DNA of 64,000 nt. It comes from Zhongshania aliphaticivorans. GTDB lineage: Bacteria > Pseudomonadota > Gammaproteobacteria > Pseudomonadales > Spongiibacteraceae. Shown piece after piece: positions 28,061 to 33,093 of this stretch (the first letter of the stretch is position 1; every line of letters begins with the position of its first letter). Location: the NCBI RefSeq assembly GCF_902705875.1, contig NZ_CACSIK010000001.1, forward strand, positions 2,909,166-2,973,165, in the 5' to 3' direction. Below the pieces are notes generated by a model. The model was given only the letters and a program-made list of their open reading frames with translations. It ran no database searches and was not told where the DNA came from. Both the position numbers and the translations under genes were made by a program.

Positions 28061-28857
28061 CCAAGCCTCGCCCAACTAGCGGCATGGCCAGCCAAGCAAT
28101 TAAACACTGGATATTTCTTCGCGGCCTAAGTCGCGAACATGCCCATTGGGGTGATTTTATTCAGCGCTGTGAGATTGAATTAGGCTGGCATTGCTACACC
28201 ATTGACCTACCAGGCTTTGGCAGCGAACATCAGCGCCCCTCACCCACCTCCATTGCTGAAATACGACAAGATGTTCAATCCCGTCTTCCCAAGGAGCTAA
28301 GCGCTAACACCCAGCCCATTGGTATCATCGCACTTTCATTAGGGGGAATGGTTGCTCTAGACTGGTTAGCCAATGATCCAGAAAATATCTATGAAGCGAT
28401 ATTGATAGGGACCAGCGCTGCCGATTGCGGACTGAGCAAGCGTCTAAAATTTAACGCCATACCCTCTACTCTATACGCCTTATTTGCGATGACAGCCCGC
28501 AAACAAGAACATGCAATATTAACCATGGTGAGCAATAACCGTCACCGCCATGCAGAGGCATTGGATCTGTGGTGCCGTATTCGCGAACTTCGCCCCACGA
28601 AAAAGCAAAATGTTATTCGCCAACTTATTGCCGCCTCACGGTTTAACTCACCGTCCGCTCAGAGTCTTAACAATATAAAAGGGCATTTCATAAGTAGCCG
28701 CGCTGACCGCATGGTCTCATTTCAATGTAGCGAATATCTTGCCAAAAAATATCACTGGCCATTAACGCTACACAACACCGCTGGGCATGACCTACCCATT
28801 GACGACGCCGACTGGTTAATACACACGCTGAAATCTATAAGCGGTCAAACTTGTTAG
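28057..28857 (+). CDS. alpha/beta hydrolase
   Basis: A 266-residue alpha/beta hydrolase. The nucleophile elbow is ALSLGGMVAL (Ser), with late catalytic residues SRADRMV (Asp) and NTAGHDLP (His). The oxyanion segment FLRGLSREHAHWGDF lies near the N terminus, where a typical HG motif is replaced by RGL. I start at the ATG overlapping the upstream stop as ATGA; an earlier in-frame start at 28042 is less likely. It closes the glycosyltransferase-M14 operon. Substrate unknown. Confidence 0.84.
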   Translation: MTKPRPTSGMASQAIKHWIFLRGLSREHAHWGDFIQRCEIELGWHCYTIDLPGFGSEHQRPSPTSIAEIRQDVQSRLPKELSANTQPIGIIALSLGGMVALDWLANDPENIYEAILIGTSAADCGLSKRLKFNAIPSTLYALFAMTARKQEHAILTMVSNNRHRHAEALDLWCRIRELRPTKKQNVIRQLIAASRFNSPSAQSLNNIKGHFISSRADRMVSFQCSEYLAKKYHWPLTLHNTAGHDLPIDDADWLIHTLKSISGQTC

Positions 28858-28997
28858 TCACTAGCTACCATTCGGGCTTAGCTGTCTGCGGAAGACAAAA
28901 ACATATAACCGCGATTTACCATTTATTTATTCAATATTTTTGGCCCAAGGTAGTTAAGATGCCATCTCTTAAACAACCCCCGAGCCAAACAATACAG

Positions 28998-30728
28998 CTA
29001 AGCAGCTTTAGTCTCGGCTGCCGGCCCTTCTAAATAACGTTTGCGCTTTGCAGGTTTCATTTTTTCAATATCCACCAACACCAAGCCATCAATACAATCT
29101 GCAAAATCTGGATCGACATTGAAAGCCGCAAAACTCACACCACCCTCATCACAAAGCTCTGTATATTGCTTATACAATGTAGGAACCGCACACCCCATTT
29201 CCGCCAATTTCTCTTTTAACTCCGTGAACTCCGCACGGTAGTCATTGCCACTAAAAACCGTTTCAGCCAATTCACTTTTATAGGGGCTGTTTGCACTGGC
29301 CCATGGCTGTGTAGCGGGGAAATGTCGCTGATAAAATTGGATCAATAAATCCTTAGCGCCTCGGGGTAAACTATCACTCAAACTAACTGGGCCGAATAAA
29401 TAACGAATTTCCGGATAACGCCGCAAATAAGTCCCCAGACCTTGCCACAAATAATCAAGGCCGTTTCGTCCCCAGTAGCGAGGCTGCACAAAGCTGCGAC
29501 CCAACTCAGCACCACACTCAAAATATTCTTCAGCGTAGGCTATTTGGTATTCAAACAATGATTCGCTATAAAGTGTTTGATCGTCAGCCAAATCTGCAAC
29601 CCGCTTCAATCTATATGCGCCCACCAATTCGAGTTGATTTTCATCCCAAAGCACAATGTGGTCGTAATAGGCATCAAAGGCATCAACATCTCGACGACGA
29701 CCTGTGCCTTCTCCCACCGCCCTAAAACTCACTTCGCGCAACCGGCCCAATTCACGCATAACGGTGCAATCACCACTGTATTGATAACAGTAGATTTCCA
29801 TCCCATCACGGGTACTGCCCAAATGGTCACACTGACGAATAGCGCGGCGTAACTCCTGACGATCCTCTGGATGTGCGACTGCCTGTGCAACTGGCATAAA
29901 ACATGGCTCGCCACCCCGCTTGCGGCGCCCCAATTTATAAATATGTTTTTTAAATAAACGGACTTTTGCTGGCGCTGTTAACGGCAACTTTTGATATACA
30001 TCCGTTTCAATAGCAGGCCCAATGGTAACGCGCACGGTACGATTATTTTGCTTAAACATTTCGCGAATTAACCACAGCGTCGACAAGGGTTTAGCGAGCA
30101 GAGACAACGCATAGAAAAACACTGAGTTACGGGCGTTTATATGCACAGGCAGGATTGGCGCCTTCGCTTTACTCGCAAATTTAATAAACCCGTTACGCCA
30201 ACGGCCATCGCGAATACCCGCCGGACTAAACCGTGACACTTCGCCTGCAGGAAATATAATTACCGCACCTTCACTATTTAAATGCTGGTGAATAGCCTGC
30301 AAGTTCTCTTTTCGGTTTCGCTTACCACTCATATTGTCTACAGGCAATAATAAGGAACGCAGCGGTTTGATTGCGTACAACAACTCATTGGCAATGACTT
30401 TGACGTCTCCACGCACCTCTGAGACCAGCTTTAATAGCGCCAAGCCATCCAGACTGCCAATTGGGTGATTGGAAATGATCACTACTCGTCCAGTTACCGG
30501 TATACGCTCTTTATCAAGTGCGCTAATTGCGTAACCAAAATCGAAATAATCGAGGGCTTTCTCAACAAAATCTAAACCCTGAACATAGGGGTAGTCTTTT
30601 CCAAACTGCTTAAATTCTGCTTCGTGAAACAAATATTTTAATAATGCAGATAACGTCCTTTTAATCCGCGGATTACCTTTGGAAATTTTGGGGAATTGTT
30701 CGTCAATTACCGAATCTACAGAAATCAT
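28998..30728 (-). CDS. olsF: OlsF-like bifunctional acyltransferase (PlsC + GNAT)
   Basis: A 576-residue two-domain protein. The N-terminal PlsC-type domain (about 45-265) has SNHPIGSLD for the catalytic His/Asp, FPAGEVSRF and ILPVHINARN. The C-terminal domain (about 285-555) is the GNAT/hemolysin-like N-acyltransferase, with MRELGRLREVSFR, DHIVLWDE and YFECGAELGRSFV. This order matches OlsF, in which the C-terminal part makes lyso-ornithine lipid and the N-terminal part O-acylates it. The product would be phosphorus-free ornithine lipid. It follows the PlcP-like gene by 18 bases, in the operon with the PHO box, which supports the reading. I infer function; other lysophospholipid acyltransferases share the fold. 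Confidence 0.72.
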   Translation of the reverse strand: MISVDSVIDEQFPKISKGNPRIKRTLSALLKYLFHEAEFKQFGKDYPYVQGLDFVEKALDYFDFGYAISALDKERIPVTGRVVIISNHPIGSLDGLALLKLVSEVRGDVKVIANELLYAIKPLRSLLLPVDNMSGKRNRKENLQAIHQHLNSEGAVIIFPAGEVSRFSPAGIRDGRWRNGFIKFASKAKAPILPVHINARNSVFFYALSLLAKPLSTLWLIREMFKQNNRTVRVTIGPAIETDVYQKLPLTAPAKVRLFKKHIYKLGRRKRGGEPCFMPVAQAVAHPEDRQELRRAIRQCDHLGSTRDGMEIYCYQYSGDCTVMRELGRLREVSFRAVGEGTGRRRDVDAFDAYYDHIVLWDENQLELVGAYRLKRVADLADDQTLYSESLFEYQIAYAEEYFECGAELGRSFVQPRYWGRNGLDYLWQGLGTYLRRYPEIRYLFGPVSLSDSLPRGAKDLLIQFYQRHFPATQPWASANSPYKSELAETVFSGNDYRAEFTELKEKLAEMGCAVPTLYKQYTELCDEGGVSFAAFNVDPDFADCIDGLVLVDIEKMKPAKRKRYLEGPAAETKAA

Positions 30729-30746
30729 GGCGCTTACTCCTAATTA

Positions 30747-31571
30747 TTATCCAGCTCTACGCAGCGGGAATACTTCCGCTTTAGCTGGGCCACCATTGCT
30801 GGTCATGCTTTGCAGTAGGGTTTGATGCTCAGTCCACTGGACAAGCTCCAACGTGCCGTCATACGTCTCGCCCAGCAATGTACAGTTTTCTATCCAATCA
30901 CCATCATTGCAGTACAACAAACCTTTAACATTCTTGAGTGCAGGTTGATGAATATGGCCACAAATAACACCATCTAATCCCCGTCGAGACGCCTCTTTAA
31001 CTGCTGCATCTTCAAATACGCTAATAACCTGCCTAGCATTGGGTATCCGCTGTTTAATATAGGTTGCCAAGGACCAGTAATTACGGCCAAAGCGACGGCG
31101 AAAGAAATTTGCCCACCGGTTTAAAAACAACAAGAAATCATAGGCCGCGTCACCAATGAGGTTTTCCCATTTACTTAAAAGAATGTGTTCATCCAGGCAA
31201 TCACCATGAAACATCAGCAAACGTTTACCATCCACCGTGGTATGAATTGCCTCGCGCTTAATCTCAACGGGGCCAAGAATATGGCCAACATAATCACGCA
31301 TAGGTTCATCGTGATTACCGGGAATATAAACAACCCGAGTACCGTCGCTGGCTTTAGAAAACAACGCCCTAACTACTTCGTAGTGGTTTGCTGGCCAGTG
31401 GAAAGTACGCTTGAGCGCCCACAGATCGACAACATCGCCTACAAGATAAAGTGTCTCGCACTCAATATTATTTAAAAAATTAAGGAGGTAGTCAGCGCGA
31501 CAGTCTTTAAAGCCGAGATGAATATCGGACAACCAAATGGTTTTATATCGTTTCCTAGTTTCCATGCTCAT
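30747..31571 (-). CDS. plcP: PlcP-like metallophosphoesterase (LpxH superfamily)
   Basis: A 274-residue calcineurin-like phosphoesterase. All five metal-site motifs are present: SDIHLG, GDVVDLW, PGNHDE, FHGD and CGHIH. Phrases such as DCRADYLLNFL and YLVGDVVD and the NDGDWIEN ending are those of PlcP, the phospholipase C of Sinorhizobium and marine bacteria that strips headgroups from phospholipids during phosphate starvation. It is often mis-annotated UDP-2,3-diacylglucosamine diphosphatase. It is followed by an OlsF-like gene 18 bases away and preceded by a PHO box, which favours PlcP. Start: ATG at 31571 or 31565. Confidence 0.78.
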   Translation of the reverse strand: MSMETRKRYKTIWLSDIHLGFKDCRADYLLNFLNNIECETLYLVGDVVDLWALKRTFHWPANHYEVVRALFSKASDGTRVVYIPGNHDEPMRDYVGHILGPVEIKREAIHTTVDGKRLLMFHGDCLDEHILLSKWENLIGDAAYDFLLFLNRWANFFRRRFGRNYWSLATYIKQRIPNARQVISVFEDAAVKEASRRGLDGVICGHIHQPALKNVKGLLYCNDGDWIENCTLLGETYDGTLELVQWTEHQTLLQSMTSNGGPAKAEVFPLRRAG

Positions 31572-31634
31572 GCATCCTCGTTATGCATTTGTGGCAAGAT
31601 TAGGACTTTATAGTGACAAATAGAGGGCTTTTTA

Positions 31635-31652
31635 AAGACAAATTTATGACAA
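31635..31652 (-). promoter_or_regulatory. PHO box of the plcP-olsF operon
   Basis: On the minus strand: TTGTCAT-AAAT-TTGTCTT, two 7-base repeats spaced by 4, against the PhoB consensus CTGTCAT-N4-CTGTCAT (6 of 7 and 5 of 7 matches). A further TTGTCAC at 31613-31619 is in the same 11-base register, two units on. The site is 64 bases before the plcP ATG. Confidence 0.62.
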
Positions 31653-31785
31653 CTGCCATCACATAAATTGCAGCTAGTGCGGTGCGCACACCTATATTGA
31701 TTAAAAGAACTTTATCTCTATGATGTTACAAGAGATTGAAATTAAACAAACTTATGGTGTTAATAATCGCACAATAACACCGCAG

Positions 31786-33093
31786 TTATTGAGCCTGTGA
31801 AGGTCGAAATAAGGCCGCAATTGCGCTGGGATTTGACGGGAAAAATAAATGTAAATATGACGCGGTTAAACCTCTGCTTTGGTAGATAGGCTCACCCGGT
31901 GCGGGGTGGCGCTGACGGCGACCATACGCTACGGGGTCAGGAGTATTTTCCGCTTGTGAGCGATGATGCGCATGTCCTCTAATATCTCCCTCAGGCAATT
32001 GGGCATATTGCATGCCCTGACAACCACCGCGAGGACGCATACAGGCATCACCGTTTAACAGGCCCAGCATTTCAACACCCTGCCCGTCTAAATCTTTTAT
32101 GCTTTCAAGGCAATACATAAACCCACCGCACTCAGCCAAAATCACTTTATTGTCAGCGTGAAATGCGCGAATAGCCGCTAGCATTTTGCTATTTTCAGAA
32201 AGCGATTTCAGATGCAACTCTGGGTAGCCGCCAGGTAACCACAATGCATCTGCAGGCGGCAACTCTGTATCACCTAATGGCGAAAAGAAGCTTATCTCCG
32301 CTCCCATATCAGTGAGTAGATTTAGGTTTGCAGCATAGATAAAGCTAAAAGCACTATCCCGTGCCACCGCTATTTTCACACCGGATAATAAAGGGAGTGG
32401 CTCAGGTAACTCTCGGCTATCAAACGCAACTGGGGCGGGTAAGTCGGCAAGGTTACTAACACCTATCATTGCCGCGGCTTTAGTAAAACGAGTCTCGATC
32501 AGCTCACTTACTTCGCTAGCTTGCACCAAACCCAAATGGCGCTCTGGCAGGCTAATCTCTGGATCTCGACTGATACTAGCAAGCAAAGGCAAGTTGTCGG
32601 GTAAGGCCTCTGCAATTAGGCTCCGGTGCCGCTCCGAGGCGCAGTTATTGGCAATAAGACCTACAACTTGAACATCATCACGGTAATTAGCCAAGCCACA
32701 TGCGAGTGCAGCAGCAGTCTGCGCCATGCCTTTAACATCCATGATTAAGGCTATGGGGATATTAAAAACCGACGCCAAATCAGCGCTTGAGGGTTCGCCA
32801 TCGAACATCCCCATTGCGCCTTCGACTAAAATCAAATCAGCGGTTTGCGCTGCAATATAAAATTGTTGCCGGCAATAGTCTTCACCCGCCATCCACAGAT
32901 CTAACTGCACCACCGGATAACCACAGGCTTGTTCTAAGATTTGTGGATCAAGGTAGTCTGGGCCCATTTTAAAAATACGCACCTGCCGACCTTGGGCATG
33001 GTGATAACGGGCTATCGCCGCTGTTATTGTGGTTTTACCTTGACCTGAAGATGGCGCAGCAAGAAACAGTGCAGGGCAAAAAATACGGCTCAT
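31786..33093 (-). CDS. cobB: cobyrinate a,c-diamide synthase
   Basis: Uses ATP and glutamine to amidate cobyrinate (CobB) in cobalamin synthesis. The 435 residues show the dethiobiotin-synthetase-like ATP loop SSGQGKTT (15-22), MGPDYLDP, a central LWLPGGYPEL and the glutaminase nucleophile ECGGFMY. Length and order are standard. Only 71 bases separate it from the next gene upstream and no cobalamin riboswitch fits there. No other cobalamin gene is in the window. The anaerobic enzyme is called CbiA, and sequence alone does not separate the two. Confidence 0.92.
   Translation of the reverse strand: MSRIFCPALFLAAPSSGQGKTTITAAIARYHHAQGRQVRIFKMGPDYLDPQILEQACGYPVVQLDLWMAGEDYCRQQFYIAAQTADLILVEGAMGMFDGEPSSADLASVFNIPIALIMDVKGMAQTAAALACGLANYRDDVQVVGLIANNCASERHRSLIAEALPDNLPLLASISRDPEISLPERHLGLVQASEVSELIETRFTKAAAMIGVSNLADLPAPVAFDSRELPEPLPLLSGVKIAVARDSAFSFIYAANLNLLTDMGAEISFFSPLGDTELPPADALWLPGGYPELHLKSLSENSKMLAAIRAFHADNKVILAECGGFMYCLESIKDLDGQGVEMLGLLNGDACMRPRGGCQGMQYAQLPEGDIRGHAHHRSQAENTPDPVAYGRRQRHPAPGEPIYQSRGLTASYLHLFFPSNPSAIAALFRPSQAQ

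Follow-up and report, generated by a model that had tools for sequence, protein, structure and literature searches.

A putative Pho-regulon operon joining a PlcP-like phosphoesterase to a predicted ornithine lipid synthase, OlsF, in Zhongshania aliphaticivorans

Why should a phosphoesterase gene and an acyltransferase gene stand together behind an apparent binding site for the phosphate regulator PhoB? The question is raised by positions 28,998 to 31,652 of a 64,000-nucleotide stretch of DNA from Zhongshania aliphaticivorans (contig NZ_CACSIK010000001.1 of assembly GCF_902705875.1, positions 2,909,166 to 2,973,165; the whole stretch is called the window below), a member of the Pseudomonadales with a genome of 3.98 Mb in 7 contigs, which we take to belong to the Spongiibacteraceae (the family in what follows). 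On the minus strand, a plcP-like gene (30747 to 31571) encodes a calcineurin-type metallophosphoesterase of 274 amino acids, followed after an 18-base gap (30729 to 30746) by olsF (28998 to 30728), which encodes 576 amino acids; AGGAG within the gap is, by eye, the likely Shine-Dalgarno sequence of olsF. An earlier, sequence-only reading had given the same positions and spacing for the two open reading frames (ORFs), and by their layout the genes form a putative two-gene operon. We propose, with a probability of about 0.84, that this is a Pho-regulon operon that would swap membrane lipids when phosphate runs out. The sequence-only reading had likewise seen here a switch that degrades phospholipid and makes ornithine lipid, and the match to the OlsF equivalog model, the LpxH scores, the presence of PhoB, a similarly built site elsewhere in the genome, and conservation all speak for it; the switch is supported by sequence, and what supports both enzymatic steps is family membership.

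The 576-residue protein scored 830.5 bits against NF052615, the model of the bifunctional ornithine lipid synthase OlsF (cut-off, 620), with residues 1 to 567 aligned to model positions 1 to 570, i.e., over its full length. Pfam matches place an O-acyltransferase domain (PF19576) N-terminally at residues 7 to 247 and a GNAT N-acyltransferase domain (PF13444) C-terminally at residues 330 to 429, which bears out the PlsC-GNAT order from which the protein had been called OlsF-like; a best profile match to a nonornithine acyltransferase, which the earlier reading had named as refuting, did not appear, the best profile being the OlsF equivalog itself. Both OlsB models remained below their cut-offs (63.0 and 62.5 bits, against 350 and 320). 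In 87 aligned OlsF rows, drawn from the fetched loci and with some species present twice, every position of the NHPxGxLD core was kept in 85 to 87 rows, and 41 positions were invariant. The closest named relatives by OlsF are Zhongshania records (88 to 93% identical), and a search of solved structures gave no match at an expect value (E) of ≤0.1. PF19576 is given as the N-terminal domain of OlsF in one paper (PMC11631085), and the domain order is worded in reverse in another (PMC9938194).

Ornithine lipid is the product that family membership would predict for OlsF. The amino acid used cannot be read from a family model, and an OlsF homolog is suspected in lysine-lipid formation (PMC11631085), so that the switch might exist with a different aminolipid as its product, carrying, for example, lysine or glycine. 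We consider such a head group unlikely, given the full-length match to the OlsF equivalog and the glycine-lipid models, which stay below their cut-offs on this protein (GlsA, 168.9 bits against 260; GlsB, 153.1 bits against 300).

The identity of the phosphoesterase required a choice between two families, PlcP and LpxH, which share one fold. Were the protein a second LpxH, the pair would serve lipid A synthesis and make lipid A together with an aminolipid. Most of the named PlcP-like relatives are in fact labeled LpxH or UDP-2,3-diacylglucosamine diphosphatase in public records, and the top matches among curated models (40.5 bits) and solved structures (27 bits) are LpxH entries, albeit weak ones. 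Thus, when the best profile is asked for, LpxH does come first, but with 40.5 bits on NF003743 (cut-off, 134) and 36.2 bits on TIGR01854 (cut-off, 190.35), far below what membership calls for, and the genome has its own LpxH elsewhere, which scores 321.8 and 308.1 bits on these models. Of 38 relatives, 37 have LpxH (E ≤ 1e-20); PlcP is distributed unevenly, occurring in 111 of 293 genomes of the order (E ≤ 1e-30). Such distributions are what one expects of a housekeeping and an accessory gene, respectively. In a tree of 92 rows, 8 LpxH rows split from 84 PlcP-like rows at 100/100; the third position of the GNHD motif is His in 204 of 204 PlcP-like rows (the 84 tree rows and 120 best database matches) and Arg, giving GNRD, in all 8 LpxH rows. 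The motifs DxH, GD, GNHD, HGD, and GHxH are intact in the window's protein, and each of their fixed positions was kept in 203 or 204 of the 204 PlcP-like rows. The protein is PlcP-like and stands apart from LpxH by score, tree, and motif, as the sequence-only reading had maintained; LpxH identity was rejected on the scores, the tree, and the GNxD motif, and a pair built around a second LpxH is very improbable. Phospholipase C activity would follow from the family.

Of the 21 family genomes, 9 entered the tree, together with 8 of 20 retrieved LpxH sequences, these 8 all from this family; the tree left out four loci duplicating genomes already present as well as L227 (179 residues, too short), and one genome, G037, stands in it twice (L100 and L238). 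Its bootstrap had not settled, and the joining of L230 to L232 with L119 was flagged as a possible long-branch artifact.

A further anchor is Pseudomonas aeruginosa, whose plasmid-borne PlcP is 44.9% identical to the window's protein over 89% of the query. We equate this plasmid gene with chromosomal PA3219 on the basis of the plasmid gene order plcP-glycosyltransferase-cyaB, presuming cyaB to be PA3217 in the chromosomal numbering. The plasmid in question, pPALO11 (L114), carries the block in a form that, judged by gene order, resembles a copied chromosomal segment. The plcP of this block falls among the PlcP-like rows of the tree. PA3219 has been probed by deletion and is 46 to 47% identical to the PlcPs of Sinorhizobium meliloti and Phaeobacter (PMC8528852).

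Is the pair placed under PhoB? Upstream from plcP, on the minus strand, the box TTGTCAT-AAAT-TTGTCTT spans 31635 to 31652 and consists of unit 1 (TTGTCAT, 31646 to 31652, 7/7 match) and unit 2 (TTGTCTT, 31635 to 31641, 6/7 match), which is the 7-4-7 PhoB layout previously noted. In the same 11-base register follow a degenerate unit 3 (AAGCCCT, 31624 to 31630, 3/7 match in the window) and unit 4 (TTGTCAC, 31613 to 31619, 7/7 match); the latter, 22 bases (2 × 11) behind unit 2, is the third unit of the earlier description. Exactly 10 bases behind unit 4 lies a predicted -10 element, TAATCT (31597 to 31602), the same distance as at Escherichia coli phoA. The implied transcript start is near 31590, which gives a leader about 20 bases long in which, by eye, GAGG stands ahead of the ATG. 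A sigma-70 scan of 28800 to 31900 gave 6 promoter-like sites against a mean of 5.4, i.e., chance level; PhoB promoters typically lack a -35 element, so we do not count this result against the proposed promoter.

None of 200 dinucleotide shuffles of the 250-bp upstream region reached the observed box score, and this, together with the conservation of the box (at most 2 mismatches in 20 of the 21 family genomes), marks it as more than a chance match. The PhoB motif scan that had been suggested found 12 sites within one mismatch of YTGTCATNNNNYTGTCAT in the 3.98 Mb scanned, against 2 for the reversed control pattern; a looser pattern allowing 2 mismatches was dropped, since it gave 380 sites and its reversed form already 240. 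PhoB itself is present (337.3 bits; cut-off, 296.2). One of the other sites precedes a phosphate-binding-protein-like (pstS-like) gene about 1.4 kb from phoB, and one each precedes a purple-acid-phosphatase-like gene and a porin gene. The remaining eight of the 12 are situated within ORFs, at a distance from any start, across a divergent start, or ahead of a gene without an obvious link to phosphate, and several of them are probably chance matches. When seven sites of the genome were examined for the element TANNNT 10 bases behind the last unit, it was found also at the pstS-like gene, the purple-acid-phosphatase-like gene, and the site L131. PhoB control of the predicted box is supported by the presence of PhoB, the similarly built site at the pstS-like gene, and conservation.

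Two of these other sites deserve a description of their own. At the purple-acid-phosphatase-like gene (L128, C1:2382787-2382804), the box is followed in register by CCGTCAA at +22 and TTGTCAT at +44, and TANNNT stands 10 bases behind the unit at +44. L131 (C2:218539-218556) is a PHO-like site lying across the beginning of a divergent ORF, which by eye encodes an adenosylhomocysteinase-like product.

Across the family, OlsF was found above the cut-off in 21 of 21 genomes from two genera, with plcP directly upstream in every one (gaps of 8 to 91 bases). Counts for the box and the array refer to these 21 genomes; the upstream alignment comprised 35 loci, of which 14 were left out as named records, most of which appear to be of the same species as genomes among the 21. 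Within 250 bp of plcP, the best match was within 2 mismatches of YTGTCAYNNNNYTGTCAY in 20 genomes (in one of these, L034, away from the aligned place) and at 3 mismatches in the last; for lpxH of the same family, which served as a control, none of 20 loci came within 2 mismatches and 1 had a match at 3. Shuffle P values of ≤0.05 were obtained for 20 of 21 plcP upstream regions versus 1 of 20 for lpxH. In the source genome lpxH begins 7 bases behind another ORF, so the control DNA there is coding. When the 11-base array was placed by the best sum over four units, units 1, 2, and 4 matched at 5/7 or better in all 21 genomes and unit 3 did so in 10. TANNNT was not used in positioning the array. 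All 21 genomes have it exactly 10 bases past unit 4, and 5 of the 21 have it at a single other offset (2) as well.

Outside the family the two genes meet less regularly, and in more than one way. In a sample of 293 genomes of the order, 74 held OlsF over the cut-off; the pair was adjacent in all 13 family genomes among them, while the 61 others included 14 pairs within 300 bp (13 plcP-olsF and 1 olsF-plcP) and 1 genome with PlcP at 1.9 kb. A sample of 369 genomes of the class, for which pairing was counted by hand, added 20 besides the source genome with OlsF over the cut-off, and 15 of these held PlcP (E ≤ 1e-40): 4 within 300 bp (1 plcP-olsF, 2 olsF-plcP, and 1 divergent), 3 at 3.8 to 12.5 kb, and 8 on other contigs. 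Taken together, both genes occur in 58 nonfamily genomes, and in 18 of these they lie no more than 300 bp apart, in one of three arrangements, where random placement in 4 Mb would give well under 1 in 100 (a rough estimate, not a computed value). Among 14 loci in named records, 13 read plcP-olsF; the other, in Psychrosphaera sp. B3R10 (L030), reads olsF-plcP with a PHO-like box before olsF.

PHO boxes outside the family pair were scored in the same terms (within 2 mismatches, for which shuffles give 0.5 to 3%), and the sets, of pairs as well as of separate genes, are best matches rather than random draws, except for the class olsF set. Where olsF stands apart from plcP, a box precedes it in 22 of 25 loci of the order (25 of 47 nonadjacent loci) and in 7 of 16 of the class, where all 16 were covered. 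In olsF-plcP pairs, the box lies before olsF in 2 of 5 and before the inner plcP in none of 5; in one of the five, L237, the OlsF-like protein falls short of the cut-off. Two nonfamily plcP-olsF pairs (L223 and L233) have a box in the gap before olsF. The pair at L227 is not among the 13 nonfamily plcP-olsF pairs scored, and its stretch lacks a box at 2 mismatches or fewer; L228 was counted as plcP-olsF although its two matches share one base. From these counts, olsF is the more regularly boxed gene; before plcP, boxes occur unevenly, and beyond the order especially so.

Several observations weigh against a phosphate-controlled replacement module. In the 61 nonfamily genomes of the order with OlsF, PlcP lies elsewhere in 28 and is missing from 18 (E ≤ 1e-30), so plcP and olsF do not need each other. 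Standing apart from olsF, plcP has a box in only 7 of 13 loci of the order and 4 of 27 of the class, and only 5 of the 13 nonfamily plcP-olsF pairs have one before plcP. The family genomes are related, and the conservation of their promoters is partly shared ancestry. Within the source genome, TANNNT is absent at the 10-base offset behind the last unit at the porin gene, L121, and L123, three of the seven sites examined. No PlcP model turned up in the profile libraries searched, which leaves PlcP membership to the tree, the identity, and the motifs. In a Tara Oceans survey, relative nitrogen and phosphate supply was significantly related to the abundance of olsB and glsB but not to that of olsF (PMC6298996); this speaks against phosphate scarcity as a general driver of olsF, though it leaves room for Pho control of olsF in this family.

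The separated genes, the genomes with olsF but no PlcP, and the patchy boxes before plcP could mean that plcP and olsF are neighbors by ancestry only and do not form one lipid-replacement module. We regard this as improbable, since adjacency recurs in three arrangements (plcP-olsF, olsF-plcP, and divergent) in 9 additional families of the order and 4 additional ones of the class, and since separated olsF genes often retain their PHO boxes. On the tree, moreover, the plcP-olsF label must have changed at least 4 times and the olsF-plcP label at least 5 times to fit the well supported branches; these numbers lump gains with losses, and 45 ungrouped rows were left uncounted.

How might a Pho-controlled lipid-replacement operon work? 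At low phosphate, phosphorylated PhoB would bind the tandem 11-base units and recruit RNA polymerase to the -10 element that follows 10 bases on. Being by family an intracellular phospholipase C, PlcP would split phospholipids, releasing diacylglycerol and the head group with its phosphate, while OlsF would N-acylate ornithine and then O-acylate the product, and the resulting ornithine lipid would take the place of the lost phospholipid. The diacylglycerol released would have to be rephosphorylated, degraded, or used by an enzyme that was not recognized in the genome. Since ornithine lipid is not built on the diacylglycerol from PlcP, the two arms would be joined by transcription only.

In this respect the locus differs from the known PlcP operons. 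The plcP-agt operon (PA3219-PA3218 of P. aeruginosa; also in Methylosinus trichosporium OB3b and SAR11) resembles it in placing PlcP first and an enzyme for a phosphorus-free lipid second, and a Pho box has been reported for the P. aeruginosa operon; there, however, diacylglycerol from PlcP is the precursor from which the second gene product makes a glycolipid (PMC8528852), whereas here the second enzyme would make an aminolipid without using diacylglycerol. The plcP-btaAB genes (the type 1 context of Sebastian et al., PMC4796936) likewise set PlcP beside genes for a phosphorus-free lipid. They differ in their product, the betaine lipid DGTS, and the BtaA family (PF11899) had no match in any of the 21 family genomes. 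Diacylglycerol is again the precursor of the new lipid in that system. An enzyme like Agt1 of P. aeruginosa had no match in the source genome at E ≤ 1e-10, in a search that did not extend to other glycosyltransferases, and 2 of 21 family genomes gave weak matches (7.5e-11 and 3.7e-12). As both an Agt1-like enzyme and BtaA went undetected, the known phosphorus-free outlets for diacylglycerol are not evident (diacylglycerol kinase was not searched for). We suggest tentatively, and at somewhat less than even odds, that plcP-olsF is a second design of lipid remodeling, assembled several times in the Gammaproteobacteria, in which destruction and synthesis are joined by transcription only and diacylglycerol has another outlet; rephosphorylation, salvage of acyl chains into ornithine lipid, or an unrecognized glycosyltransferase would be candidates.

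The two arms have been described separately in other bacteria. Vibrio cholerae has a bifunctional OlsF (VC0489) that is induced by low phosphate through PhoB and forms ornithine lipid under low phosphate in a PhoB-dependent manner; PlcP, phosphoesterase, phospholipase, VC0490, and VC0488 do not appear in the main text of that report (PMC12186959). In Pseudomonas putida BIRD-1, both a plcP arm and an olsBA arm are raised under low phosphate in a PHO-dependent way, as would be expected here, but ornithine lipid synthesis there takes a two-gene OlsBA (0974-0975), and plcP lies at a distant locus tag, 1390 (PMC5082522). The six plcP contexts described by Sebastian et al. include none with olsF in the accessible text, the supplementary table aside (PMC4796936). 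A plcP-olsF pair likewise goes unmentioned in the accessible portions of PMC12186959, PMC4796936, PMC9239053, PMC5082522, PMC8528852, PMC11631085, PMC6298996, PMC9938194, PMC9804370, PMC5193443, and PMC11828411. No description of such an operon was found among titles and abstract openings in the open-licence literature searched (the original OlsF papers may say more), and no aminolipid report for Spongiibacter was found there by title. Both enzymes are thus of known kinds, and what seems new is the plcP-olsF arrangement, which was not found in the literature searched. It may matter beyond this family, as counts of PlcP in ocean metagenomes have been taken to indicate remodeling toward glycolipid or betaine lipid (PMC4796936): if the pairing is as frequent as in our samples, part of the gammaproteobacterial PlcP signal would instead reflect ornithine lipid. 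The family could also serve for following what becomes of diacylglycerol when, of the known phosphorus-free lipids made from it, the two that were looked for both seem to be unavailable.

Some details of the setting and of related loci may be added. Upstream from plcP, a neighboring ORF on the same strand ends at 31786, leaving 214 bases for the promoter; either the first or the third residue of the plcP ORF could be its start. The gene downstream from olsF is convergent, and terminator-like sites in 28800 to 31900 were at chance level (4 against a mean of 3.9), with none shown behind olsF. In four more loci, an OlsF-like protein below the cut-off lies beside PlcP (1 olsF-plcP and 3 divergent). 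A second OlsF-like class, scoring about 345 to 440 bits (below the cut-off of 620) and aligning mostly from model position 15 to 55, recurs in the order and the class, and its genes sometimes stand beside or divergent from plcP, for example, at L053.

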